Assembly: GCA_017302015.1 (NCBI GenBank) | Contig: JAFLEE010000003.1 | Location: forward strand, 62,001 to 126,000 | Length of the DNA: 64,000 nucleotides | DNA from: Spirochaetota bacterium | GTDB lineage: Bacteria > Spirochaetota > UBA12135 > COTS27 > JAFLEE01 | Direction of reading: 5' to 3' | Shown: positions 2,985-32,263 of the stretch, piece by piece | Numbering within the stretch: the stretch's first letter is position 1 | Layout of the letters: each line of letters opens with the position of its first letter | Position numbers and translations under genes: made by a program | Notes under the pieces: model-generated | What the model was told of the DNA's origin: nothing | The model's database searches: none | Seen by the model: the letters and a program-made list of their open reading frames with translations, nothing else

Positions 2985-3880
2985 TAGACCGACGGGGCCG
3001 AACCCGTCTTCGATTTGAAAAAGGCGCTGAAATAGAACGGATCGCGGAAGCCGCAAGCGGCCGCGGTCCGCGACACATTCTCCCCTTCCCCCAGTAGCGT
3101 CTTCGCCCGCTCCAATCGCAGCGCGTTGGCGTAGGCGACCGGGGACGCCCCGTAATCCCTGCGGAATTGCCGGCTGAAATGGGCCGGGCTCATCCCCGCG
3201 ACCCGGCTGACTTCTTCCAGGCGCATCGAGCGGCCCAGGTGCTCGCGAAGATGCTTCTCCGCACGCTTCATGCGCGCCCCCGGCGGTTCCTTGGCCGGGG
3301 GCTCCTCCACCCGCCTTAGGATCCGCGTGAGGATCTCGAGGATCTTCAGGTGGACCAATTGCTTGGCGTATTTCCGCCGCCCCGTGATTTCATCCTCCAC
3401 ATCCGAAAGGAGGGCTTCGCCTTCCCAGAACTTATGGAGCACCAGGAAACCCGAGATCGTGAGGCGTCCTCCCATGGACTCCAGGTCGAGGTCGGCCTGT
3501 TCTTCGTAGAGGACCTCAAGGCGATCCTGGATGCGGAAATCGGAGCGCGTCGCGCGGGCGATCTTCCTCCCGGTCTGCAGGCCAAACCAATAGAAATCCA
3601 CCGATTTGCCCCCGGTATCGAATTGATGGGGCAGATCGGGGGCGGTCACCAGGAGATCCCCCGGCGCCAGCGACAAGGGCTTTAATTTCGGGTTCAGGAT
3701 GAAGGAAAACCGCCCCCGGGTGATGTATTTGAATTCATAGCCGAAATGCCCGTGGAGCCCGGCCTTCTGGACCCCCGACCCGCTTCGGAATTCCCGGGCA
3801 TGGCCGAAATGGGTCAGGCGGGGGAGTTCGGATAGGGGGAAATGGTCCAACCGGTACTGCACAGGTAAAAATTTTCGCAT
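2969..3880 (-). CDS. AraC-family transcriptional regulator
   Basis: The chosen ATG at 3878-3880 gives 303 residues beginning MRKFLPVQYRLDHFPLSELP. The frame stays open a further 53 codons upstream, but that stretch is low-complexity and lacks family features. The N-terminal part looks like a cupin-type sugar-sensing domain (SFILNPKLKPLSLAPGDLLVTAPDLPHQF reads as a jellyroll edge). The C-terminus has two helix-turn-helix motifs: LGRSMRLEEVSRVAGMSPAHFSRQF and the second helix pair ending in ACGFRDPFYFSAFFKSKTG, the classical AraC signature. The gene is divergent from the GH38 alpha-mannosidase gene across a 439-bp gap, which suggests it senses a sugar and controls that gene. Confidence 0.9.
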   Translation of the reverse strand: MRKFLPVQYRLDHFPLSELPRLTHFGHAREFRSGSGVQKAGLHGHFGYEFKYITRGRFSFILNPKLKPLSLAPGDLLVTAPDLPHQFDTGGKSVDFYWFGLQTGRKIARATRSDFRIQDRLEVLYEEQADLDLESMGGRLTISGFLVLHKFWEGEALLSDVEDEITGRRKYAKQLVHLKILEILTRILRRVEEPPAKEPPGARMKRAEKHLREHLGRSMRLEEVSRVAGMSPAHFSRQFRRDYGASPVAYANALRLERAKTLLGEGENVSRTAAACGFRDPFYFSAFFKSKTGSAPSVYREKG

Positions 3881-4319
3881 GCGCCGAATTTCCGGGGTGG
3901 GGCTCCGTTTTCCCCATGGACAAGGCCGTCCCCCGGGGTTACCATTCGCCTTAGGTAACTTCGCGGATGCTCCCATTCTGACGGAACCGTCGTGACGAAT
4001 CAATCCAATCGAGCCAAAACGACAGCGTTTCGTTTCCATTCCCCGGCGAAATGATGGGCAACCTCGTGACCCATCGTTTTTGGTCGGAATTCGCTGCGAA
4101 AACCTGTTTAAACTCGCCCATTACCCCTCCATCCAACTCTTCATTTTAGGCGAAACCAGGAACATCAACCGATAAAGGCTTAAATCCCCCCAGGCTCCCC
4201 GGATTTCGCCCATAAGACGACGTCGCACCGCCCCTTGGAATCGGTATCGTCGCGGCCGCCGGATCGCCCGATCCAAACCAACCAATTTCTAATCGTATCG
4301 TTCACCCCGAGGAAACAAC
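3881..4319. promoter_or_regulatory. Divergent regulatory region araC-type / alpha-mannosidase
   Basis: This 439-bp stretch carries no gene I can support. It holds AT-rich patches near 4080-4110 and 4140-4170, and a 6-bp inverted repeat GATGGG/CCCATC at 4053-4075 followed by TTTT. A -10-like TATCGT lies in ATCGTATCGTTCACC about 25-30 bases before the mannosidase ATG, close to an AGGAAAC ribosome-binding site. AraC proteins usually bind paired direct repeats near the -35 region; I could not identify a convincing pair by eye. Confidence 0.4.
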
Positions 4320-7300
4320 ATGCTCAAGCATCCCAAACTCACCCAAGACCGGATTCGGCTCTTCACCGAACGCATGGCCCAACAGATCTGGACCGAAAAA
4401 CTTCCCCTCGAGGTCCAGGTCGCCGGCCCCGTCGGGCGCATTCCGCTCGCCGAGGCGCGGCGCCTAAAATACCGAAAAGCGTCCCTCGGCCTCGCCCTGC
4501 AGCCGGCCTGGTCGACCTGGTGGTTCCGGGCCAAGGGCAAATTGCCCATTGCCTGGAAGAGCCGCAGCGTCGATCTGATCTTCAACACCAAGAGCGAAGC
4601 CCAGGTCTGGATCGGCGGGGAACCCTACCAGGGCCTCAATTACGATACCGCCCATCCCTATAAAGACGGCGGCCGGGTGAACGCCCGCCTGCCCGCCGAC
4701 CTCGTTCGCCGCGGGATCATCGACGTCGAAGTGGAGGCCGCCGCCAACGGCCTTTTCGGGATTCCCCTGGCGGAGGCGGGCTATAGCAACGTCAGCGAAG
4801 GCTCGCTATGGGTCTTCACCGAAGCGGCCCTCGCCCTGGTGGACGAGGAGGCCTGGAAACTCTACCACGACCTATTCGTCCCCGCGGAATGGGTGCGCCT
4901 GGCTCCCGACGTCAAAAAACTCGACCCTTGGCGAGGGTTCGTCCTCGCCCGGCTCAACGAGCTCTGTAATCTCGTGGTGCCGGAAGACCGCGCCACCTGG
5001 AAAAAGGCCGCGCCGATCCTGAAGGAGATCTACCGCCAGAAGAACGCCTCCTACTCCCACGAAATCACCGCCGTCGGGCATGCCCATATCGACACCGGTT
5101 GGCTTTGGCCGGTGGCTGAGACCGTGCGCAAATGCGCCCGCACCTTCTCCACCGCCACCCGCTACATGGAGCGCTACCCGGATTACCGCTTCGCCTGCTC
5201 CCAGGCGGTGCAGTACGAGATGATGAAGGAGCGCTACCCCGGCCTCTACCGGCGCATCCAGGCGGCCGTAAAGAGGGGCCAATGGGTGCCCGTGGGCGGC
5301 TCCTGGGTCGAACCCGACTGCAATATCCCCTCCGGAGAATCCCTGGTCCGCCAATTCCTCTACGGAAAGCGTTATTTCCGCCAGGAGCTCGGCTTCGAAT
5401 GCAAGGAGTTCTGGAACCCCGACGTGTTCGGCTATAGCGGCGCCCTCCCCCAGATCATGAAGGAAGCAGGGATGGACCATTTCGTCACCCAGAAGCTCTC
5501 CTGGAACCAGTTCAACAAGCCCATCCACCAGAACTTCTGGTGGGAGGGGATCGACGGCTCCCGGGTGCTCACCCATTTCCCCCCGGCCGACACCTATAAC
5601 GCCATGGCCCACCACCACGCCGTGCGCGACCTCATCCACCAGACCGAAAATTGCGCCGACAACGACCGGACCAACCAGGGCCTCATGCTCTTCGGCTACG
5701 GCGACGGCGGCGGCGGTCCCACCACCCATATGCTCGAGGTGCTCTCCCGGGTGAAGGATTTCCAGGGGCTTCCCCGCACCGCCCAGCGCCCGGTGGATGC
5801 CTTCTTCACACGGCTTAAAAAATCCCTCAAAGACATCCCCGTGATGTCCGGCGAACTCTATTTCGAGCTCCACCGGGGAACCTACACGAGCCAGGCGCGC
5901 ACCAAACTCGGCAACCGCAAGAGCGAGGTCGCGCTGCGGGCGGTGGAGCTCCTCTACGCCCTGGCCCCCCGGTCGACCTATCCGGCCGAGGAGATCGAGG
6001 CGCTGTGGAAGACCGTCCTGCTCAACCAGTTCCACGATATCCTCCCCGGCTCCTCCATCGGCGAAGTCTACGCGGTAAGCGACCGGGACTACCGGGACAT
6101 CCTCGCCAAAGCCTCGGCGCTCCAAGAGAAGGCCGCTTCGGCGTGGGGGGAAGGGAAGGGGCTCTCCTTCATCAACCCCTGCTCCTGGAGCCGTAGCGGG
6201 GTCGTCGAGTGCCCCAAGGGCCCGAAAGACGCCGACTCTACGCCCCAAAAATCGGCTTCCGGTGCTCCCCTCGCCTGGCTGAACGCCCCCTCCCTGGGCG
6301 GCGCGACCCCCGGGATCGGCAAGGCCCCCCGGCCCAGCGCGGTCTCCCGCCAAGGCTCGAACTTCGTCCTCGACAACGGCAAGATCCGCGCCGAGTTCCT
6401 CCCCACCGGGGAACTCGTCCACCTCGTCGAACTCGAGACCGGGCGCGAAAGCATCCTCCCCGGCGAGAAGGCCAACGCCTTCGTCGCCTTCGACGACCAC
6501 TCCAATAATTGGGACGCCTGGGATATGGACGTGTTCCACCTGGAGACCCGCCGCGCCCTCCCCGGGGCCCGCAGCGCCAAGATCCTCGAGAAGGGGCCGC
6601 TGCGCTCCACCCTCGAGTTCTCCTACGCCTTCGCCCCCAGCCGAATGACCCTCCAGGTTTCCCTCGACGCCGGCAGCGGGCACCTGGACTTCGCCGCTGA
6701 AATGGATTGGAGGCACCGCCATACCTTCCTCAAGGTCGAGTTCCCCGTGGCCGTAAAGTCCGATTTGGCCACCTACGAGATCCAGTACGGGGCGGTCACC
6801 CGGCCCACCCACTTCAATACCACCCATGACATCGCCCGATTCGAATCCAGCGCCCAGCGATGGATCGACCTCGGCGAGCCCGGGTTCGGGGTTTCCCTCT
6901 TCACCGATTGCAAGTACGGCTACGCCGTCCACGGCCAGGTGATGCGCATCTCGCTCCTGCGCAGCCCCACGAGCCCGGATCCCGAAGCCGACCAGGGCGC
7001 CCAGGCCTTCCGCTACGCGATCTACCCCCATGCGGGCACCTGGCGGGAGGCCCAGACGGTGAGGCGCGCCTACGAGTTCAACCACCCCTGGATCCCCGCC
7101 ACCGTGGGGGTCGATCCGGCAAGCCGCGCTTCCATCGATAGTCCCCATCTCATCCTGGACGCCGTCAAGAAGGCCGAGGATTCCGCGGCCACCATCCTGA
7201 GGCTCTACGAGTGCCATGGGGAGCGCGGGGAAGCACTCGTGCGCCTCCCCAGGGGCTCCCGGAAGGTGGAACACGTCAACCTCCTGGAAGAGACCAAGAC

Positions 7301-13375: not shown

Positions 13376-14719
13376 TCAACCCACGCCTTGGAGGATGGTT
13401 TCCGCTGTTTTCCTCAAAAGCGGGTCTTCCTTCAATCGCTGTTCCACGGCCTGGCAGGCCTGCACCACGGCCGAAGGGCTTTTTCCGCCCAGGAGCCGGG
13501 CGATCTCGTTGACCCCCACCTTCCCGTGGTGGCGCAGCAGATACATGGCCAATTGGCGGTACTGGCTGAGGCCCCGATCGCGCCGGGCCGATTTCAGGTC
13601 TCCCAGGGAATGGCGGGAATAATTGGCGACGGAGACGAGCAGTCGATCGGGGGTGAGTTCTCCCCCCGAGGGGTTGAGGCAATCGCCTAAGTGCTTCTGG
13701 CAATAGGCGTGGTCGATGGTTTCCCCGTGGATATCCCGTAGGATGGTGAGTTTGCGCACCGCGGCGATCACGCGCCGGCAATCGGGCGGCAGGCGATTCG
13801 CCAGGAACTCCCGGGTTTCCTCGCTCAGATCGAAATCCGCTTCCTTCAGGTAGAAATCAAGCAGCGCCCGGCGGGCGGGAGCGGCGGGGGGCTCGAGTTC
13901 GGCGATGAGCCCGCTGGCCAGCCGGCTCTTGAGGCGCTCGTCCAACCCCCCGAGTTCGCCCGGCGGCACATCGCTGGTGAAGACCAATTGCTTTCCCGGC
14001 TGGTAGATCTCGTTGAACAAGTGGAAGAATTCGAGGGCGGTCTCGGTCTTTCCGGAGAGGAGTTGGACATCGTCGAGGAGGAACACGTCGAGGCTGCGGT
14101 ATTGGAGGCGGAACAGGCGGTCGGTGCGGTTGCGGATGGCGTCGATGAATTCGGTGACGAACTGGTCGACGCGGACGTAGCGGACCTTGAGGTAGGGATG
14201 GTGCTCGAGGAAATGCCGGCCGATGGCCTGGATGAGGTGGGTTTTCCCGGTTCCGGCGCACCCGTAGAGGTAGAGCGGGCTGATGCTCCCCAAATGGGAG
14301 CAGATTTTGCGGGCGCATTCGAAGGCCAAGCGGTTATTGGCGTGGGGGACGTAGCGGTCGAACGTATTCTGGGGATGGAAGGCCGCGGGAAGGCCCGCCG
14401 TCTGCGGTGCGGGCTCCGGAGGCCGGGAATTCACAATAGGCGAATTCGGGGCCGCGGGCGGCGTGGCCGAGTTCACGAGGATCTCCACGCGCCATTTTTG
14501 CCCGGAAGCTTCTTCGAGGAGCTGGGAGAGGCGGGGCAGGTACTGGCGGGAAATGCGCTCTTTCTTGAAATGGCTGGCCGTGGAAAAGCGGACGCGCTCG
14601 CCCTCGACCTCGACGAAATGCAGGTCGTCGAGCCATATGGCGGCCTCTTCCGCGGGAACTTGCCCCTTGAGCGCCTCGAGGGCGGTCTGGAAAAAAATGG
14701 GTTGGTTTCCCGTGGCCAC
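13376..14719 (-). CDS. dnaA: Chromosomal replication initiator DnaA, divergent DNA-recognition motif
   Basis: A GTG at 14717-14719 after GGGAGGGAGC is the likely start (447 residues); the ATG nine codons upstream lies in the -10 box. Domain I, a Pro-rich linker, the AAA+ domain III and domain IV are all present. Domain III has FDRYVPHANNRLAFECAR, Walker A GCAGTGKTHL, Walker B VFLLDDVQLL, sensor I FTSDVPP and DERLKSRL with the arginine finger. Domain IV keeps YRQLAMYLLRHH, but the signature GGRDHTTV that reads the DnaA box is replaced by GGKSPSAV. So DNA recognition should differ from TTATCCACA. DnaA melts oriC and loads the replicative helicase. Neighbours rpmH-rnpA-yidD-yidC confirm it is the origin-region gene. 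Confidence 0.93.
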   Translation of the reverse strand: MATGNQPIFFQTALEALKGQVPAEEAAIWLDDLHFVEVEGERVRFSTASHFKKERISRQYLPRLSQLLEEASGQKWRVEILVNSATPPAAPNSPIVNSRPPEPAPQTAGLPAAFHPQNTFDRYVPHANNRLAFECARKICSHLGSISPLYLYGCAGTGKTHLIQAIGRHFLEHHPYLKVRYVRVDQFVTEFIDAIRNRTDRLFRLQYRSLDVFLLDDVQLLSGKTETALEFFHLFNEIYQPGKQLVFTSDVPPGELGGLDERLKSRLASGLIAELEPPAAPARRALLDFYLKEADFDLSEETREFLANRLPPDCRRVIAAVRKLTILRDIHGETIDHAYCQKHLGDCLNPSGGELTPDRLLVSVANYSRHSLGDLKSARRDRGLSQYRQLAMYLLRHHGKVGVNEIARLLGGKSPSAVVQACQAVEQRLKEDPLLRKTAETILQGVG

Positions 14720-14744
14720 GCTCCCTCCCAGGCAGGCGAGCGGC

Positions 14745-14774
14745 ATTATAGCCCCCGCTTTCGGCGTCCATCAA
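14745..14774 (-). promoter_or_regulatory. Promoter of dnaA
   Basis: TTGATG (14769-14774), 18 bases, and TATAAT (14745-14750) on the minus strand. The -10 overlaps the upstream ATG, which supports the GTG start. Confidence 0.65.
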
Positions 14775-14820
14775 CTTTCACGTGAGAACGCTCCGTGGAA
14801 AGGATTTCAAGGCGACGAAT

Positions 14821-14849
14821 TTGACACCCCTGTGGGCAAGCGTTATAAT
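14821..14849 (+). promoter_or_regulatory. Consensus promoter of rpmH
   Basis: TTGACA (14821-14826), a 17-base spacer and TATAAT (14844-14849) match the sigma-70 consensus exactly. It drives the rpmH-rnpA-yidD-yidC-jag block. The -35 lies in the 14-bp element CGAATTTGACACCC at 14816-14829. Confidence 0.9.
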
Positions 14850-14945
14850 CTGCGCGAACTTCCGGGCCGAAATTCCTCATTAATGTAGCCGCCTTTTTCC
14901 TTCGTCCCCGAATTCAACCCGAATTTTCAATCTCCAAGGTTCGCC

Positions 14946-15092
14946 ATGAAACGCACGTACCAACCCAGCAAACTCAAACGCGCCAAGGTCGCCGGTTTCC
15001 GAAAGCGCATGAAGACCAAAGATGGCCGCAAGATCATCAACGCGCGCCGAAAAAAAGGGCGCCGCCGCCTGTCGGCCACCAGCGCCCACTGA
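14946..15092 (+). CDS. rpmH: 50S ribosomal protein L34
   Basis: The 48-residue, very basic protein starts [20 protein letters not shown] and continues with [18 protein letters not shown], the standard L34 sequence. L34 is a small protein of the large ribosomal subunit. It is the first gene of the rpmH-rnpA-yidD-yidC block, divergent from dnaA, and sits about 97 bases downstream of a consensus -10 box. The rnpA start follows after two bases. Confidence 0.98.
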
Positions 15093-15094
15093 CA

Positions 15095-15412
15095 TTGAAC
15101 GGACCGCGCGTTAGGCTGCGCGACTACCGCGCCCTCATCGCCAGGGGCCGCAAGCTCTTCAGCCCCTGCTACCTGGTCTACGCGATGCCCTACGGGCGCA
15201 CCGTCTTCAAGGCCGCGGTCAAAAAACGCATCGGGAACGCCGTGGCGCGAAACCGCGAAAAGCGACACATCCGGGCCGCCTTGCGTCACACGACGCTTAA
15301 GAGCCCGCATCTGGTGCTTGTCATCCTCACGCGTCCCGCCGGCATGGGGTTCGCAGAGAAACAGGCCCTGCTTCGTTCCTGCCTTCGCCCCCTGGCCCCC
15401 CGCCATGACTGA
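15095..15412 (+). CDS. rnpA: Ribonuclease P protein component
   Basis: The 105-residue protein starts at TTG two bases after the rpmH stop. It contains the RnpA signature KAAVKKRIGNAVARNREKRH, with the RNR motif that contacts the RNase P RNA. RnpA is the protein subunit that helps the catalytic RNA cut the 5' leader from pre-tRNAs. The length is normal for the family. Its stop overlaps the yidD start by 8 bases, so translation of the two is probably coupled. Confidence 0.95.
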   Translation: MNGPRVRLRDYRALIARGRKLFSPCYLVYAMPYGRTVFKAAVKKRIGNAVARNREKRHIRAALRHTTLKSPHLVLVILTRPAGMGFAEKQALLRSCLRPLAPRHD

Positions 15413-15629
15413 GTGGACCACCCTCCCCATCCGCTTCTACCGCTGGCTCTTCGCCGGCAAACCCGCCGTCTGCCGCTACCAACCCACCTGCAGCCAATAC
15501 GCCCTCGATGCCGTTCGCGAATGGGGTCCGCTTTTGGGCTACGCGCTGGCTCTCTGGCGCATCCTCCGCTGCCACCCGTTCGCCCATCCCCGCGTGGATG
15601 AGGTTCCCCGGCGCCATCCCTCCATCTGA
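15405..15629 (+). CDS. yidD: Membrane protein insertion efficiency factor YidD
   Basis: The 74-residue protein has the YidD signature CRYQPTCSQYALDAV and a later GYALALWRILRCHPF stretch, with the three conserved cysteines. YidD is a small membrane-associated protein that aids YidC-dependent insertion of inner-membrane proteins. It overlaps rnpA by 8 bases and lies 21 bases before yidC, the usual order. Confidence 0.95.
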   Translation: MTEWTTLPIRFYRWLFAGKPAVCRYQPTCSQYALDAVREWGPLLGYALALWRILRCHPFAHPRVDEVPRRHPSI

Positions 15630-15650
15630 AATCCCCCTACGGACATCCCC

Positions 15651-17363
15651 ATGAGTCAACCCTCCGGCTTCAACCTCGAAAAGTGGCGTTTCCCCATCGC
15701 CATGGTGCTCTCCTTCGCCATCATCCTCGGGTGGGTCTGGTTCACCCAGAAGAACGCGCCCGCGCAGAAGCCCACGCCGGCGGCGGCCCCCCTTGCGGCG
15801 GGCGTCTCCAATCTCACCGCCGCGGTCTCCGCCGTTTCGCCCATGGCCCCCGTCGCCGTGATGGCCGCCCCCGCCGAGAAGGCGATCCCGGCCAAATTAG
15901 CGGTGCTCGAGAACGACGACCTTCGCATCACCCTCTCCTCCCGCGGAGGCGTGGTCGTCTCGAACCTCTACAAAAAGAGCCCCAAGGGCTCCTTCGTCGA
16001 TTTCGAGGAGGGCTCCCTCTCCAACCACCATTGCGGCTCGCTCATCTTCGGCAATAAACTCGACCAAACCCCCCTCGACCAGGCCTTCGAACTCTCCGAA
16101 TCCTCCCCGCGCCACCAAGTCTGGCGCGCGCGCATCGAGCAGGCCGGCGCCGCCTACGATCTCGTGAAGCGCTACGACCTGAACTCCAACGACCTCAAAC
16201 TCACCCTGCGCATGGAGCACCGCGTCGGCCCCGGCCTCCAGGGCTCGCTGATGCTCCTAAACGGCTCCTCCATCGGCCCGAGCCTCCCCGCCGACAAGCG
16301 CACCTCCTTCGACGTGCTCACCGCCGCGCGCGTGACCGGGAACAGCTATAACGTCGCCCTCGCCCCGGGGATGTTCTCTTCCACCAGCAAATACGAGACC
16401 CACCCGGCCACCGAATGGATCGCCCTCCATAGCCGCTATTATTTCAAGGCCCTGCGGCCCGACCAAGGCGGCGCGGTGGCCCATTTCCTGGCCAAGCACG
16501 ATTCGGTGACGAACCTTCCCGTCGGCGGCTATGAAGTGCCCTTCACCCTGGCGGCGGGCGGCGTCTACGAATCGCGCTTCACCTACTCCTTCCTTCCGAA
16601 AGATCGAAGTCTTCTGAGCAAACTTACCGATGCGACAGGTATTCAGTTTTATAAGATCTTTGATCAATATGAAATTATGTATCTGCTTGCGAATGCCATG
16701 TATTACCCCATGACGTTCATCAACGGCTTCGTGAAGAATTACGGCATCACCATCCTCATCCTCACGCTCTTCCTCAAGATGATCACCTGGCCGCTCAACC
16801 AGAAGAGCCTCGTGACCATGCAGAAGATGCAGTCGCTGAAGCCCAAGATCGACGAGATCCAGAAGTCCTATAAGGGCGACGCCCAGAAGATCAACCAGGC
16901 CACCATGGCCCTCTACCAGAAGGAGAAGGTGAACCCCCTCTCCGGCTGCCTGCCCATGCTCATCCCCATGCCGGTCTTCTTCGCCCTCTATTCCCTCTTC
17001 CGGAACATGATCGAGATGGATCTCCAATCCTTCCTGTGGATCAAGGACCTCTCGCTCCCCGACATGGCCTTCCTCCTGCCCTTCGAGATCCCCTTCATCG
17101 GGCATTACGTGAACCTCCTGCCCATCATCATGACCCTCACCCAGGTCCTGCAATCGGTGCGCACCCCCCAGCCCGACGCCTCCGCCAACTCCACCCAGAC
17201 CTTCATCTTCAAGTACATCTTCCCGTTCATGTTCCTGTTCATCCTCTGGAGCATGCCCAGCGCGCTGGTCCTCTTCTGGACCCTGCAGAACATCGTCTCG
17301 TGGCTCCAGGCCGAATGGGTGCGTTCCCGCAAGAACCGCGCCGTCGCGGCCCCTTCCCGCTAA
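15651..17363 (+). CDS. yidC: Membrane protein insertase YidC
   Basis: The 570-residue protein is of the long Gram-negative type. It has an N-terminal anchor (about 16-32), an Ala/Pro-rich linker, a large periplasmic P1 domain (about 80-320), and the conserved core helices from about 345 on. The core holds YGITILILTLFLKMITWPL, with KSLVTMQKMQSLKPKIDEI as the cytosolic loop and NPLSGCLPMLIPMPVFFALY. YidC inserts and folds inner-membrane proteins, with or without Sec. About 80 bases at 16611-16690, just before the core, are only 34% GC against well over 60% around them. The reading frame and protein are intact there. Confidence 0.96.
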   Translation: MSQPSGFNLEKWRFPIAMVLSFAIILGWVWFTQKNAPAQKPTPAAAPLAAGVSNLTAAVSAVSPMAPVAVMAAPAEKAIPAKLAVLENDDLRITLSSRGGVVVSNLYKKSPKGSFVDFEEGSLSNHHCGSLIFGNKLDQTPLDQAFELSESSPRHQVWRARIEQAGAAYDLVKRYDLNSNDLKLTLRMEHRVGPGLQGSLMLLNGSSIGPSLPADKRTSFDVLTAARVTGNSYNVALAPGMFSSTSKYETHPATEWIALHSRYYFKALRPDQGGAVAHFLAKHDSVTNLPVGGYEVPFTLAAGGVYESRFTYSFLPKDRSLLSKLTDATGIQFYKIFDQYEIMYLLANAMYYPMTFINGFVKNYGITILILTLFLKMITWPLNQKSLVTMQKMQSLKPKIDEIQKSYKGDAQKINQATMALYQKEKVNPLSGCLPMLIPMPVFFALYSLFRNMIEMDLQSFLWIKDLSLPDMAFLLPFEIPFIGHYVNLLPIIMTLTQVLQSVRTPQPDASANSTQTFIFKYIFPFMFLFILWSMPSALVLFWTLQNIVSWLQAEWVRSRKNRAVAAPSR

Positions 17364-22191: not shown

Positions 22192-22953
22192 ATGGGCAAA
22201 ATCATCTCCGTCGCCAACCAGAAGGGCGGGGTGGGCAAGACCACCACCGTCATCAACCTTTCCGCCGCCCTCGGGCACCGGGGAAAGCGCATCCTGCTCA
22301 TCGATATCGACCCCCAGGGCAACGCCGCCAGCGGGCTCGGGGTGAACGCCCAAGAGGGCGTGACGAGCTACGATATCCTCATCAACGAGGTCTCCGCCGA
22401 GTCGGCGGTGCGCAAGACGGCCACCCCCGGCGTCGACATCATCACCGCCAACCAGGACCTCTCCGGCGCCCAGATCGAACTGGTGAACATGCTCGCCCGG
22501 GAGAGCCTCTTAAAGCGCGCCCTCGAGCCCCTTCGGGCCTCCTACGACTTCATCTTCATCGATACCCCCCCGAGCCTGGGGCTCCTCACGGTGAACGCGC
22601 TCACGGCCTGCGACACGGTGCTCATCCCCATCCAATGCGAGTTCTACGCCCTGGAGGGGATCGCCCAACTCATGACCAACATCAAGATGATCAAGCAGAA
22701 CCTGAACCCCAGCCTCCTCATCGAGGGGGTCTGCCTCACGATGTACGATTCCCGCACCAACCTCTCCCGGGAGGTGATGGAAGACGTCGTGGCCCACTTC
22801 AAGGAGAAGACCTTCAAGTCGATCATCCCCCGCAATATCCGCCTCTCCGAGGCGCCCTCCCTGGGCAAGCCCATCTCGGCCTATTCCCCCGAGAGCCAGG
22901 GGGCCCAGGCCTACGAGAAACTCGCCGACGAATTCCTTTCCCGAAACCCCTGA
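22192..22953 (+). CDS. parA: Chromosome partitioning ATPase ParA (Soj)
   Basis: The 253-residue protein has the deviant Walker A loop ANQKGGVGKTTTVINLSAAL near the N-terminus, the LLIDIDPQGNAASGLG motif and FIFIDTPPSLGLLTVNAL (Walker B region). The length and lack of an N-terminal HTH mark it as a chromosomal Soj-type ParA. It binds DNA non-specifically as an ATP dimer and moves ParB-parS complexes during segregation. It is followed 11 bases later by parB and lies close to two parS sites. Confidence 0.97.
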   Translation: MGKIISVANQKGGVGKTTTVINLSAALGHRGKRILLIDIDPQGNAASGLGVNAQEGVTSYDILINEVSAESAVRKTATPGVDIITANQDLSGAQIELVNMLARESLLKRALEPLRASYDFIFIDTPPSLGLLTVNALTACDTVLIPIQCEFYALEGIAQLMTNIKMIKQNLNPSLLIEGVCLTMYDSRTNLSREVMEDVVAHFKEKTFKSIIPRNIRLSEAPSLGKPISAYSPESQGAQAYEKLADEFLSRNP

Positions 22954-22964
22954 AAGAGGCAGTC

Positions 22965-23819
22965 ATGGCACAGCGCAAGGCACTCGGCCGCGGTCTCTCC
23001 GCCCTCCTGGGCGGGGAAGAACCGTCGACCACCACCGCGGTCAAGAACCAGATCATCGAGATCCCCATCGACCGCATCCGCCCCGGGGGCGACCAGACGC
23101 GCACCGTCTTCGATAAGGACGCCCTAGAGGAGATGGCGGCCTCCATCAAGCGCCTGGGGGTGGTCAACCCCATCGTCGTCCACGAGGCCTCGGGCTTCTA
23201 CGAGCTCATCGCCGGGGAGCGGCGCTGGCGGGCGAGCAAGGAACTCGGTCACAAGACGATCCGGGCCATGGTGGAGAACCGCAGCGACGAGGACCGCCTC
23301 CTCATCGCCATCGCCACCAACGTCCACAACGAGAAGCTCACCCCCGTGGAAGAGGCGCAAAGCTACGAACTCCTCGCCCGGCGCCTGGGCTGCACCCACG
23401 AGGAGGTGGCCCAGAAGATCGGCAAGAGCCGCTCCCACGTCACCAATATGCTGCGGGTGCTGAAGCTCCCCGATTCCATCCGCCGCCACATCAATTCGGG
23501 GAAGGTGAACCTGGGCCAGGCCAAGGTGCTCGCCGGCCTCGACGACCGGGAACAGGAGAAGATGCTCAAACGCATCCTCGAGGGCGGCCTCTCGGTGCGC
23601 GAGGTGGAAAAGAGCGCCCCGAGCAAGAAAAAAGTTCCACGTGGAACCTCGGGGCGAGGAGCGACCGAAGACCTCGCCCACCTCGAGAAGAAGCTGCGCG
23701 ACCACCTCCAGACGAAGGTCGCCATCCGGGGGAGCCGCGGCGGCAAGGGCCGCATCGAGATCGATTATTATTCCGACGAGAACCTGGGTCGCATCCTCAA
23801 GAAGATGGGCCTTTCCTAG
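22965..23819 (+). CDS. parB: Chromosome partitioning protein ParB (Spo0J)
   Basis: The 284-residue protein starts MAQRKALGRGLSALLGG, the usual ParA-interacting N-terminus. The CTPase/sulfiredoxin-like core has ELIAGERRWRASKEL and NVHNEKLTPVEEAQSY. The DNA-binding domain has a helix-turn-helix around HEEVAQKIGKSRSHVTNML. The C-terminal dimer domain follows a linker. Part of that linker (KKVPRGTSGRG) is encoded by a parS-like site, so gene and binding site overlap. ParB spreads from parS as a CTP-dependent clamp and is moved by ParA. Confidence 0.97.
   Translation: MAQRKALGRGLSALLGGEEPSTTTAVKNQIIEIPIDRIRPGGDQTRTVFDKDALEEMAASIKRLGVVNPIVVHEASGFYELIAGERRWRASKELGHKTIRAMVENRSDEDRLLIAIATNVHNEKLTPVEEAQSYELLARRLGCTHEEVAQKIGKSRSHVTNMLRVLKLPDSIRRHINSGKVNLGQAKVLAGLDDREQEKMLKRILEGGLSVREVEKSAPSKKKVPRGTSGRGATEDLAHLEKKLRDHLQTKVAIRGSRGGKGRIEIDYYSDENLGRILKKMGLS
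23633..23648. promoter_or_regulatory. parS site inside parB
   Basis: AGTTCCACGTGGAACC holds the 14-bp palindrome GTTCCACGTGGAAC, the core of the common TGTTCCACGTGGAACA parS. It lies in the linker-coding part of parB. Confidence 0.85.
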
Positions 23820-23837: not shown

Positions 23838-23891
23838 AAAAAGAAGCCCCCGCCGATGTTCCACGTGGAACACCCGCGGGGGCCTTTTTTT
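23838..23891. terminator. Bidirectional terminator between parB and RNase J gene, enclosing parS
   Basis: GCCCCCGC (23846-23853) pairs with GCGGGGGC (23876-23883), with TTTTTTT after it on the plus strand and AAAAAAA before it, giving T-runs for both converging genes. The 22-base loop region contains a complete parS palindrome that would extend the hairpin. Confidence 0.85.
23857..23872. promoter_or_regulatory. Perfect parS site
   Basis: TGTTCCACGTGGAACA is a perfect 16-bp palindrome identical to the known parS of several bacteria. It lies 38 bases after the parB stop, inside the terminator hairpin. Confidence 0.92.
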
Positions 23892-23904: not shown

Positions 23905-25806
23905 TTAGCGGGGCTGGGCCACCTGGAAATTGAGGAAGACGTAGATCGAGGGGGTTTTGCCGGTGGAGCCCTCGAAGAAGCGCTTCAGTTCTTTCTTGGC
24001 CTGCTGCTCCACCTTCTTGCGGTCTTTGAAGATCTCGATGGCGTTCTCCTCCAGGAAGCGCACGAGGGACTTCTTCGACTTCTCGAAAAGATCCTCCCGG
24101 ATGCCCCGGTGCACGAAGCCCTTGGTGACGATTTCCGTCTCTTGGATGCCCTTCTCGGAGCCGCGGACATTGTAGATGACGAGGCCGTTTCGCCCGAGGC
24201 TCACCCGGTCTTCGACCACCTCTTCGTTGATCCCGTTGTCGCGGTCGTTCTCCACGAAGCACGGGTTAATCTTGATCTTCTCCAAGAGGCGCAGGCCCTT
24301 GGAACCGACTTCCACCCTCTGGCCGTTCTCGATGAGGAAGATGTTGAACTTGTTGATCCCGGCCTCGAGGGCCAGGTCGCGGTGCTTCATGAGGTGCACC
24401 GTCTCGCCGTGGAAGGGGATGAAGAACTTCGGCCGCGTGACCTTGAGCATGGTCTTCAGCTCTTCCTGGTAGCCGTGGCCGGTGGTGTGGATCTTGATGT
24501 CTTTGTTGGTGACCACCTTCACCCCCTCCTTCATCAGCTTGTTGATGAGGGTATTGACGCTGGTTTCGTTCCCCGGGATCGTGGAGGAGGAGAAGAGGAT
24601 CGTGTCTTCCTTCTCGAGCTTGATCACCTTATGGCGGCCCGAGGCGATGCCGGAGAGCCCGGCGGTCTGCTCGCCCTGGCTCCCCGTGGCGAGGATGAGG
24701 ATCTTATTCTTCTGGATGCGCCGCAGGTCGGATTCGACGAGGATCGTGTTCTCGTAGGTGCGGAATTGCCGCACGCCGATGGCCGCCTCGGTGTTCTCAA
24801 GCATCGAACGGCCGGTCATGAAGACCTTTCGCCCCGTGCGGCTGGCGATCTCGAGGAGCTTCTGGATGCGGTGAATCTGGGAAGCGAAGGTGGCGAGGAT
24901 CACGCGGCCCTCGGCTTCCAGGAGCACCTGCTCCAAGTTGGCGCTCACATCGGATTCCGAGAGGCTATGGCCGGGGTTGATGGCGTTGGTGGAATCGCTG
25001 ACGAGGCAGAGAACGCCCTTGCTGCCGTAGCGCTTGAGGGCGGTGAGGTCGGTCACCGGCTCGTATTGGGCGCTCGCGTCGATCTTGAAGTCGCCGGTAT
25101 GGATGATGGTGCCCGCCGGCGTCTGGATGGCCAGGGCGATGGCATCGGGGATGGAGTGGTTGACGTGGATGGGGTCGATGGTGAACGGCCCGACGGGGAA
25201 GGACTTCCCTTTTTTCACGTCCTTAATTTTGTACCGCAGGTTCGGGCATTTATCCGCCAGGGATTTTTCGACCATGGCGCGCGTGAAGGGCGTGGCCCAG
25301 ATCGGCACGTTCACCTTGTTCAAGAAGAGGTGGAGCGCCCCGATATGGTCCAAGTGCGCGTGGGTGATCACCATCCCGGAAATGCGGTGTTGGTTTTCGA
25401 TGAGGTAGGAGAAATCGTTGACGATGTAGTCCACCCCGGGTTGGTCCGCCTTCGCGAATTTGAGGCCGCAATCGATGATGAGGATGAAATCGCGGTACTC
25501 GTAGAGGATCATGTTCTTGCCGACTTCCTCCAACCCTCCCAAGACGAGGATGCTGATCTTGGTCTTGTCGTCCGGATTGTGCCGCACCGCCTTTTGGGGC
25601 GCCTCACGGGGTGGAAGAGCGGTTCGCGTCGGGCGGGAATCATGGCTCGTCTGGTTTTCTTTCGGCTCGGACGGTCGATCCCCCCTGCGCCTTCTTCCGC
25701 GTCCGCCGCGGTGGCGTCGGGGGCCTCTGGGGCCGGAGGGATTGGATGAGGAAGCGTCCCTGGGGCGGTTGGGATTGGCGTTTCCATCTTGGATGGGTTC
25801 TGACAT
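23905..25806 (-). CDS. rnj: Ribonuclease J with Arg/Gly-rich N-terminal extension
   Basis: The 633-residue protein is a metallo-beta-lactamase/beta-CASP nuclease. The metal motif ITHAHLDHIG is at 147-156, with DHIGALHLF after it; VNHSIPDAIALAIQT, the HTGDFKIDAS motif and later GHGYQEELKTML and PFHGETVHLMKH are RNase J marks. RNase J degrades and matures RNA by 5'-3' exonuclease and endonuclease action. Residues 1-80 precede the usual start and include a strongly basic stretch with GGRGRRRRG, likely an unstructured RNA-binding tail. The gene converges on parB. Its upstream region is unusually AT-rich. Confidence 0.94.
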   Translation of the reverse strand: MSEPIQDGNANPNRPRDASSSNPSGPRGPRRHRGGRGRRRRGDRPSEPKENQTSHDSRPTRTALPPREAPQKAVRHNPDDKTKISILVLGGLEEVGKNMILYEYRDFILIIDCGLKFAKADQPGVDYIVNDFSYLIENQHRISGMVITHAHLDHIGALHLFLNKVNVPIWATPFTRAMVEKSLADKCPNLRYKIKDVKKGKSFPVGPFTIDPIHVNHSIPDAIALAIQTPAGTIIHTGDFKIDASAQYEPVTDLTALKRYGSKGVLCLVSDSTNAINPGHSLSESDVSANLEQVLLEAEGRVILATFASQIHRIQKLLEIASRTGRKVFMTGRSMLENTEAAIGVRQFRTYENTILVESDLRRIQKNKILILATGSQGEQTAGLSGIASGRHKVIKLEKEDTILFSSSTIPGNETSVNTLINKLMKEGVKVVTNKDIKIHTTGHGYQEELKTMLKVTRPKFFIPFHGETVHLMKHRDLALEAGINKFNIFLIENGQRVEVGSKGLRLLEKIKINPCFVENDRDNGINEEVVEDRVSLGRNGLVIYNVRGSEKGIQETEIVTKGFVHRGIREDLFEKSKKSLVRFLEENAIEIFKDRKKVEQQAKKELKRFFEGSTGKTPSIYVFLNFQVAQPR

Positions 25807-26037
25807 AACGGAGGTCCTCGGCTACTTTTTTAAGCAGCCTATGTTTTTTTTGTGGCGAGGCTTTTTTTGCTTAAATACTTAAACAACTTAAGTCCTCTAA
25901 AATTCAGTATGAGGGGGAGAAGATTTTTTTCTTGTTATTTAGGAGCATCAGTAGGGGGTTCAGAAATTAAGAAAGTCCTTGGTGGAGTCTTGGTCGTGTT
26001 TCGTTGGCTGCGATCCAAGCCGGGAGCCGATTAAGTT
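25807..26037 (-). promoter_or_regulatory. AT-rich leader region of the RNase J gene
   Basis: This 231-bp stretch is clearly AT-rich compared with its surroundings and has several A/T homopolymers of seven or eight bases. AGCCT and AGGCT form a weak stem followed by a T-run at 25836-25870. No credible gene was found; an open frame of 60 codons on the plus strand has no coding signs. It probably holds the RNase J promoter and a long leader that may be the site of autoregulation by cleavage, which is an inference. Confidence 0.4.
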
Positions 26038-31468: not shown

Positions 31469-31474
31469 TTGGAG

Positions 31475-31811
31475 TGGAGATGGCGGGAGTCGAACCCGCG
31501 TCCAACAGACTGTCAGAAGGTCGCCCTACATGCTTAGCCCGCGCTTGATCTCGACGACGGCTGGTGCGCGAACAAACCCACCGGCGTCACGTTTCCCGGA
31601 ATCCCGGCAATCGGGTCGGGAACGCCCCCGATTGCCCCGACACACCTTTCTTACAAGGACGCGGAGTCAGTGCCCTCCCCCGCGCCCCCGCGTTGCTTAG
31701 GTTAAATTAAGCAGCGAGAGCCAAATTTTCTTCGGCAGATATTGCAGTTTACGTACCGCTTGCGACATGCGCGTCCGACCTCGTTTCTGCTGTCGATACC
31801 GTGACATCCCC
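31475..31811 (-). ncRNA. ssrA: tmRNA
   Basis: The 337-base gene has the alanyl tRNA-like ends: 5' GGGGATG pairs with CATCTCC at the 3' end, and the T-arm GCGGGTTCGACTCCCGC is intact; CCA is not encoded. The tag frame at 31707-31745 reads AISAEENLALAA then a stop, with the resume codon GCA after GTAAACT. The ALAA end is the usual degradation signal. tmRNA with SmpB rescues stalled ribosomes and tags the truncated peptide. Confidence 0.97.
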
Positions 31812-31858: not shown

Positions 31859-32263
31859 AAAAGATCGCGCGAAGACGAAGGGAGAAAAGAAAGTCGCGAG
31901 GATGGGTGAAATAAACCTCCGAATTCAGAGGGATCTCATATGAGGTGATCTCTATGAGGTGATCTCTATGAGGTGAAGTCGCCCGAGCGGCCCGAAATGG
32001 GGCGGCGCCATAACGAGGCCAATCTCAGGCGCGACTTTTCACACTCTTTACTGTTATCAACTATCAACTCGAGTCTCCTTAGCGACAGCGAGCAGTAGGG
32101 CGACAAAGGCAGATTCCCGGGCGCTGGAGAAGGAGAAAAGCCTCTGGAGAACGCGAAAATGCTAGAATGGGCACCCATCCCGGGGTCGATCATTCGGCCA
32201 ACCGCTCGAATTCTATAGACCGCGTCGCCCGGGCTTCCCCGGGAAGAACCCGTAATCCCAACC
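31859..32263. other. Non-coding interval with short tandem repeat and ABC-F leader
   Basis: No gene is supported here. A 14-bp unit ATGAGGTGATCTCT occurs twice plus nine bases of a third copy at 31940-31976. TAGAAT at 32163-32168 could be the ABC-F -10, giving a leader of about 90 bases. A GC-rich hairpin CCCGGG/CCCGGG at about 32229-32243 sits near the start codon; ABC-F genes often have attenuator leaders, but no leader peptide was found. Confidence 0.4.
31940..31976. repeat. 14-bp tandem repeat, 2.6 copies
   Basis: ATGAGGTGATCTCT is repeated exactly at 31940-31953 and 31954-31967, followed by ATGAGGTGA. The function is unknown; it could be an expansion of a short dyad (GATCTCAT precedes it). 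Confidence 0.85.

Follow-up and report, generated by a model that had tools for sequence, protein, structure and literature searches.

The dnaA gene in the stretch of DNA analysed here (64,000 nucleotides, hereafter the window) encodes an initiator whose recognition helix departs from that of E. coli DnaA at positions that contact the DnaA box, and it raises the question of which word this protein reads and where replication starts. The DnaA-box code is among the most conserved bacterial protein-DNA codes. A natural variant that lacks the near-invariant His434 and retains the fold, together with the minor-groove arginine in the case of this genome, offers a direct way to study the co-evolution of initiator and origin.

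DnaA protein and its recognition helix

13376–14746, minus strand: dnaA, 456 aa, ATG start, the only copy in the genome, with domains I, III, and IV
13379–13657, minus strand: domain IV (residues 364–456), which can be superposed on 1J1V, the E. coli complex of domain IV with a DnaA box
13466–13489, minus strand: codons of GGKSPSAV (residues 420–427), in which S423-P424-S425-A426 replace D433-H434-T435-T436

The protein is a complete DnaA with domains I, III, and IV, as the earlier note had stated. Pfam matches to DnaA_N (residues 19–78), Bac_DnaA (125–282), and Bac_DnaA_C (368–434) all exceeded the cut-off, giving the domain set of bacterial initiators (DnaA_N, the AAA+ domain Bac_DnaA, and Bac_DnaA_C), and the NCBIfam model TIGR00362 was passed narrowly (344.1 bits with a cut-off of 343.9). 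The gene end had been placed at 14719; this is an internal GTG start, and the reading frame extends to an ATG at 14746. Walker A and B, the arginine finger, and the sensor II region were present, with homology to solved structures, and the invariant AAA+ residues G165, K168, D225, D226, R271, R275, and R324 were kept. A single domain IV was found in the whole assembly (5.4 Mb, estimated 93% complete). A second dnaA was rejected, the only other AAA match being an IS21 IstB helper.

The predicted domain IV was superposed on 1J1V with a Z-score of 17.6 and an rmsd of 1.3 over 93 residues (364–456 on 374–466). This alignment fixed the residue register between the window protein and E. coli DnaA: S423=D433, P424=H434, S425=T435, A426=T436, Q429=H439, N413=P423, and R389=R399. 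The predicted recognition helix comprises residues 424–440, with Pro424 in the first turn behind Ser423. According to both alignment and register, the equivalent of the minor-groove Arg399 is kept as Arg389; it is Lys in G002, a genome of the same order. The X-His motif of the DHTT type, which is typical of the recognition helix without strictly defining it, is replaced by SPSA in the window protein and by TPSA in G002. No DHTTV-like motif was detected in the rest of the window DnaA. As Ser/Thr-Pro favours the start of a helix, the replacement of D433-H434 is compatible with an intact fold; Ser/Thr-Pro would still cap the recognition helix, with loss of the base contact made by His434.

In E. 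coli, recognition of the box is divided between the major groove, where the helix 434–451 reads TnCACA, and the minor groove, where TTA is read by Arg399; the R399A and T435M variants are defective, the latter in box binding (PMC5742627). Base-specific positions are 399, 423, 432–435, 438, and 439 (PMC5043019). These contact maps support the earlier suggestion that the Asp-His-Thr contacts with the box are lost. The window protein shares with E. coli DnaA (1J1V) the domain order, AAA+ fold, HTH fold, minor-groove arginine 399, and helix-capping position, and differs from it by D433S, H434P, T435S, T436A, H439Q, and P423N, all at or next to base-contacting positions. Reading of the TTA half-site would be kept via the minor-groove residue (Arg in the window protein, Lys in G002), and the TnCACA half would no longer be read as such.

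Domain IV was further read at 86 loci of 78 genomes, comprising G002, 69 others of the same phylum, and 8 of other phyla. G002, which belongs to a different family of the order, has a full-length DnaA with GGKTPSAI, the same kind of motif as the single-copy GGKSPSAV of the window, and the latter is therefore neither an error nor a single-genome oddity. No other relative of the same order yielded a readable dnaA in a class sample of four genomes, including that of the window; in G001 and G003, dnaA was found in neither, and RNase J was absent in the former and represented only by a contig-end fragment in the latter. Apart from G002, 77 genomes were read at position 434: 76 have His and one (locus L100) has Tyr; among all genomes read, Pro occurred at this position in the window DnaA and G002 alone. 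The alignment across the phylum relatives confirmed that the motif departs, and the statement that nearly all DnaA proteins have GGRDHTTV holds for the near-invariant His434 but is too strong for positions 433, 435, and 436, which vary within the phylum. No further motif of the [ST]PSA type was present among the best 30 matches of a phylum search (393 genomes with domain IV). The motif is known from two genomes only, both of one order. At the level of sequence, the [ST]-P-S-A common to two distant families of this order suggests a selected change and not a sequencing fault or decay. Both the reality of the helix change and its status as a clade trait are practically certain. The specificity of domain IV appears to be altered, probably together with the origin word. 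On balance, we take the protein to be a working chromosomal initiator DnaA, intact and single-copy, with a domain IV specificity changed in its order.

Position of the replication origin

14747–14945, no strand: spacer between dnaA and rpmH, with a promoter towards rpmH and one degenerate box, TTGCCCACA
22192–22953, plus strand: parA, origin-linked partition gene
22965–23819, plus strand: parB, origin-linked partition gene
23857–23872, no strand: parS, TGTTCCACGTGGAACA, a perfect palindrome just 3' of RNase J
23905–25806, minus strand: RNase J (rnj), with an orthologue at the skew minimum of G002

The neighbourhood of dnaA in the window is the ancestral arrangement. The genes beside it, on the opposite strand, are presumably rpmH-rnpA-yidD-yidC-jag-mnmE-mnmG-rsmG-parA-parB, as named from the sequence and general knowledge. 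The rpmH promoter within the dnaA-rpmH spacer consists of TTGACA (14821–14826) and TATAAT (14844–14849) separated by 17 bp.

Raw GC skew of the window was rejected as an origin marker because coding-strand bias dominates it. On contig C89, four-fold sites had more C than G (skew about −0.15 to −0.44) whichever strand the gene was on, an unusual bias that swamps the replication skew. Since raw skew follows the coding strand, we used a strand-corrected model that compares G with C at four-fold sites and includes effects of strand and side and one switch. The switch was placed at 23.7 kb (2-lnL range about 21–26 kb; reached in none of 200 permutations), adjoining parB-parS-RNase J, and a change point at dnaA was 7–8 lnL units below it. 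The raw skew minimum at about 22–34 kb and a 14-bp tandem repeat at 31928–31976 were also considered; the repeat falls outside the corrected origin interval. This repeat consists of 3.5 copies of GAGGTGATCTCTAT in the spacer adjoining the tmRNA gene (31472–31811, minus strand).

The parS site lies within a hairpin with 27-nt arms (23838–23891). The hairpin is flanked by A- and T-runs and so may double as a terminator between parB and rnj.

For comparison, G002 is a closed genome of 2.68 Mb, of which 85% was covered in the analysis. Its cumulative skew had a clean minimum at about 4–17 kb and a maximum at 1.28 Mb, with change points at 5.9 kb (G/C) and 14.1 kb (T/A), the G/C point being 8 kb from the rnj spacer. 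RNase J occupies 14170–15840, parA is located at 35 kb, and dnaA at 1.976 Mb, which is 0.7 Mb from the origin. Two parS-like sites lie just 3' of RNase J in G002 too. Since parS or parS-like sites follow RNase J at both skew origins, the RNase J-parS block is a conserved origin-proximal element, and dnaA is not. It is likely that the origin is located near RNase J-parS rather than near dnaA, and initiation would most likely occur there.

Candidate origin spacer upstream of RNase J

25807–26037, no strand: candidate oriC, AT-rich spacer upstream of rnj
25877–25881, plus strand: ACTTA site
25886–25890, plus strand: ACTTA site
25889–25893, minus strand: ACTTA site overlapping the previous one within the palindrome ACTTAAGT
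26032–26036, minus strand: ACTTA site

The spacer upstream of rnj coincides in part with the 200-bp stretch that has the second-lowest GC of the 140-kb contig. The orthologous spacer of G002 (13640–14169) has 74% A+T, a 21-bp palindrome CAGTAACTTATAAGTTACTGA, and three copies of ACTTATCA. The word ACTTA was recognised by comparing both spacers side by side. It occurs 4 times in the window spacer (0.65 expected from dinucleotide shuffles) and 10 times in that of G002 (2.9 expected), and in a joint max-over-pentamer test of both spacers, the score was reached in 7 of 3000 dinucleotide shuffle pairs (family-wise P about 0.002). The ACTTA cluster is the only one in the 140-kb contig, where two ACTTA do not recur in any further 231-bp stretch, and 11 relatives with ordinary DnaA had no ACTTA excess upstream of rnj. 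A de novo k-mer ranking over the covered 85% of G002 did not single out the rnj spacer, whose rank for any 8-mer cluster is no better than about 1100th among 17469 windows in this repeat-rich genome. The contexts of the word also differ, ACTTAA in the window vs. ACTTATCA or ACTTATAA in G002 (TTAA vs. TTATCA), and the 3' parts are unlike. Within ACTTA lies TTA, the half-site expected for the retained Arg389, and in this respect the word fits the structural reasoning.

The AT-rich spacer with clustered ACTTA would be the best candidate for both oriC and the box; from this site, bound DnaA would open the A/T tract next to it via its AAA+ domain, as usual. The chances that ACTTA is an origin element appear evenly balanced, and its role as the box read by the window domain IV is proposed tentatively. 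The changed origin code postulated in the earlier note is plausible, and ACTTA in the spacer ahead of RNase J now gives it a concrete form, as a candidate box only. Slightly more tentative still is the full reading, in which the whole order has recoded its origin: [ST]PSA took the place of [D]H[TS]T, TTATCCACA gave way as the box to an ACTTA-centred word keeping TTA, and the origin lies at RNase J-parS apart from dnaA.

The ACTTA sites could instead be a regulatory element of rnj or an AT-rich promoter feature with no role in replication, given that the spacer doubles as the rnj leader and that TTAA-like words are expected in AT-rich spacers by composition. We consider this rather unlikely, since the enrichment holds up against dinucleotide shuffles in either genome, the 11 relatives show none upstream of rnj, and the position of the spacer matches that of the skew change point.

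Canonical boxes and other readings of the altered helix

The earlier note had reported no canonical box around dnaA. This is true for TTATCCACA with 0–1 mismatch within 1.5 kb of dnaA, both in the window genome and in G002. Across the window, five one-mismatch sites were present (4.15 expected); the exact TTATCCACA occurs in 5 copies on 5 different contigs of the window genome and in 22 copies in G002 (24 expected). Bacterial origins typically, though not universally, carry clustered boxes of the TTATCCACA type; no such cluster was detected in the window genome, a difference from the E. coli system. The dnaA-rpmH spacer contained neither a box cluster nor ACTTA, and the CGAATT repeats in this spacer were rejected as an origin word, as their copies are too few. 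Four one-mismatch boxes of G002 (5980–6509) were discarded as well, the inner ones being part of a dispersed repeat family, ATCTGTGTTCATCTGTGGTTAA. This intergenic family (e.g., locus L068, 6300–6600) includes 113 exact copies of TTCATCTGTG and 53 of ATCTGTGGTTAA in 2.28 Mb of G002. Three things that would speak against the earlier note were looked for, namely a DHTTV-like motif elsewhere in the protein, a second dnaA, and a cluster of standard boxes at the origin, and none was found. The missing boxes at dnaA are weak evidence for a changed code, because several relatives with the ordinary motif lack boxes there and the skew origin is about 10 kb away. An exact TTATCCACA within 1.5 kb of dnaA was found in 13 of the 28 relatives with ordinary DnaA, and some relatives have none.

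The same weakness leaves room for a DnaA that reads ordinary degenerate boxes, with the helix change tolerated or compensated and the origin at the ancestral dnaA-rpmH spacer. The dnaA-rpmH-rnpA-yidC order is kept, as are Lys/Arg at position 432 and Arg389, and the spacer contains one two-mismatch box, TTGCCCACA, at 14831–14839 between the −35 and −10 elements of rpmH. However, this is a single site where 0.29 are expected by chance, and no cluster accompanies it. Moreover, the skew change point fits worse at dnaA than at 23.7 kb by the 7–8 lnL units given above, His434 is near-invariant elsewhere, and G002 has no boxes at its dnaA, 0.7 Mb from the origin. Such a reading is unlikely. More unlikely still is a loss of sharp specificity by domain IV, in which DnaA would rely on non-specific or minor-groove binding and on the AAA+ domain or a helper protein to recognise single strands (DnaA-trio), and ACTTA would not be its box. 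Both His434 and Thr436 are gone, the T435M variant of E. coli has a box-binding defect (PMC5742627), and the candidate sites are unlike between the window genome and G002; yet that two distant families share one replacement, [ST]-P-S-A, suggests constraint and not decay, and a significant word is common to both origin spacers. DnaA-independent initiation in the order, with DnaA kept as a transcription factor of drifting DNA specificity, is very improbable: DnaA-independent bacteria are mentioned in PMC8287927 and dnaA of G002 is 0.7 Mb from the origin, but the window protein retains three intact domains and conserved AAA+ motifs, and the DnaA of G002 is full-length too.

A recoded origin has a known precedent in Thermotoga maritima, where a changed helix goes with a changed box. 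The recognition helix of its DnaA (2Z4R/2Z4S) also departs from DHTT (NRSHPVVV), and its box ACCTACCAC departs from TTATCCACA (PMC10316083). The His is apparently kept there (S-H-P-V in our own register), whereas the window protein has Pro, and ACCTACCAC was not enriched in the candidate spacers, with no copies in those of the window and two 2-mismatch sites in that of G002 (1.1 expected). In the epsilonproteobacteria Helicobacter pylori and A. butzleri, the box preference is shifted likewise, which was attributed to helix-5 residues (PMC5043019); there, however, the Asp-His pair is kept and the box is still a recognisable variant of TTATCCACA. The window DnaA is a new DnaA variant. If the origin is indeed recoded, caution is due with origin predictors that depend on TTATCCACA or on the vicinity of dnaA.

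Some other features of G002 were observed. Locus L068 encodes, at 3156–6086 on the minus strand, a 976-aa Cas12-like protein with Cas12u4/Cas12f and Cas12f1-like TNB matches. A CRISPR-like array with a 66-nt period lies beside this gene, less than 10 kb from the skew minimum, and its repeats occur at both ends of the G002 contig. At 1700001–1720000 (locus L094), a 20-kb stretch that is not a simple tandem repeat had a GC skew of −0.68, far beyond that of its surroundings.
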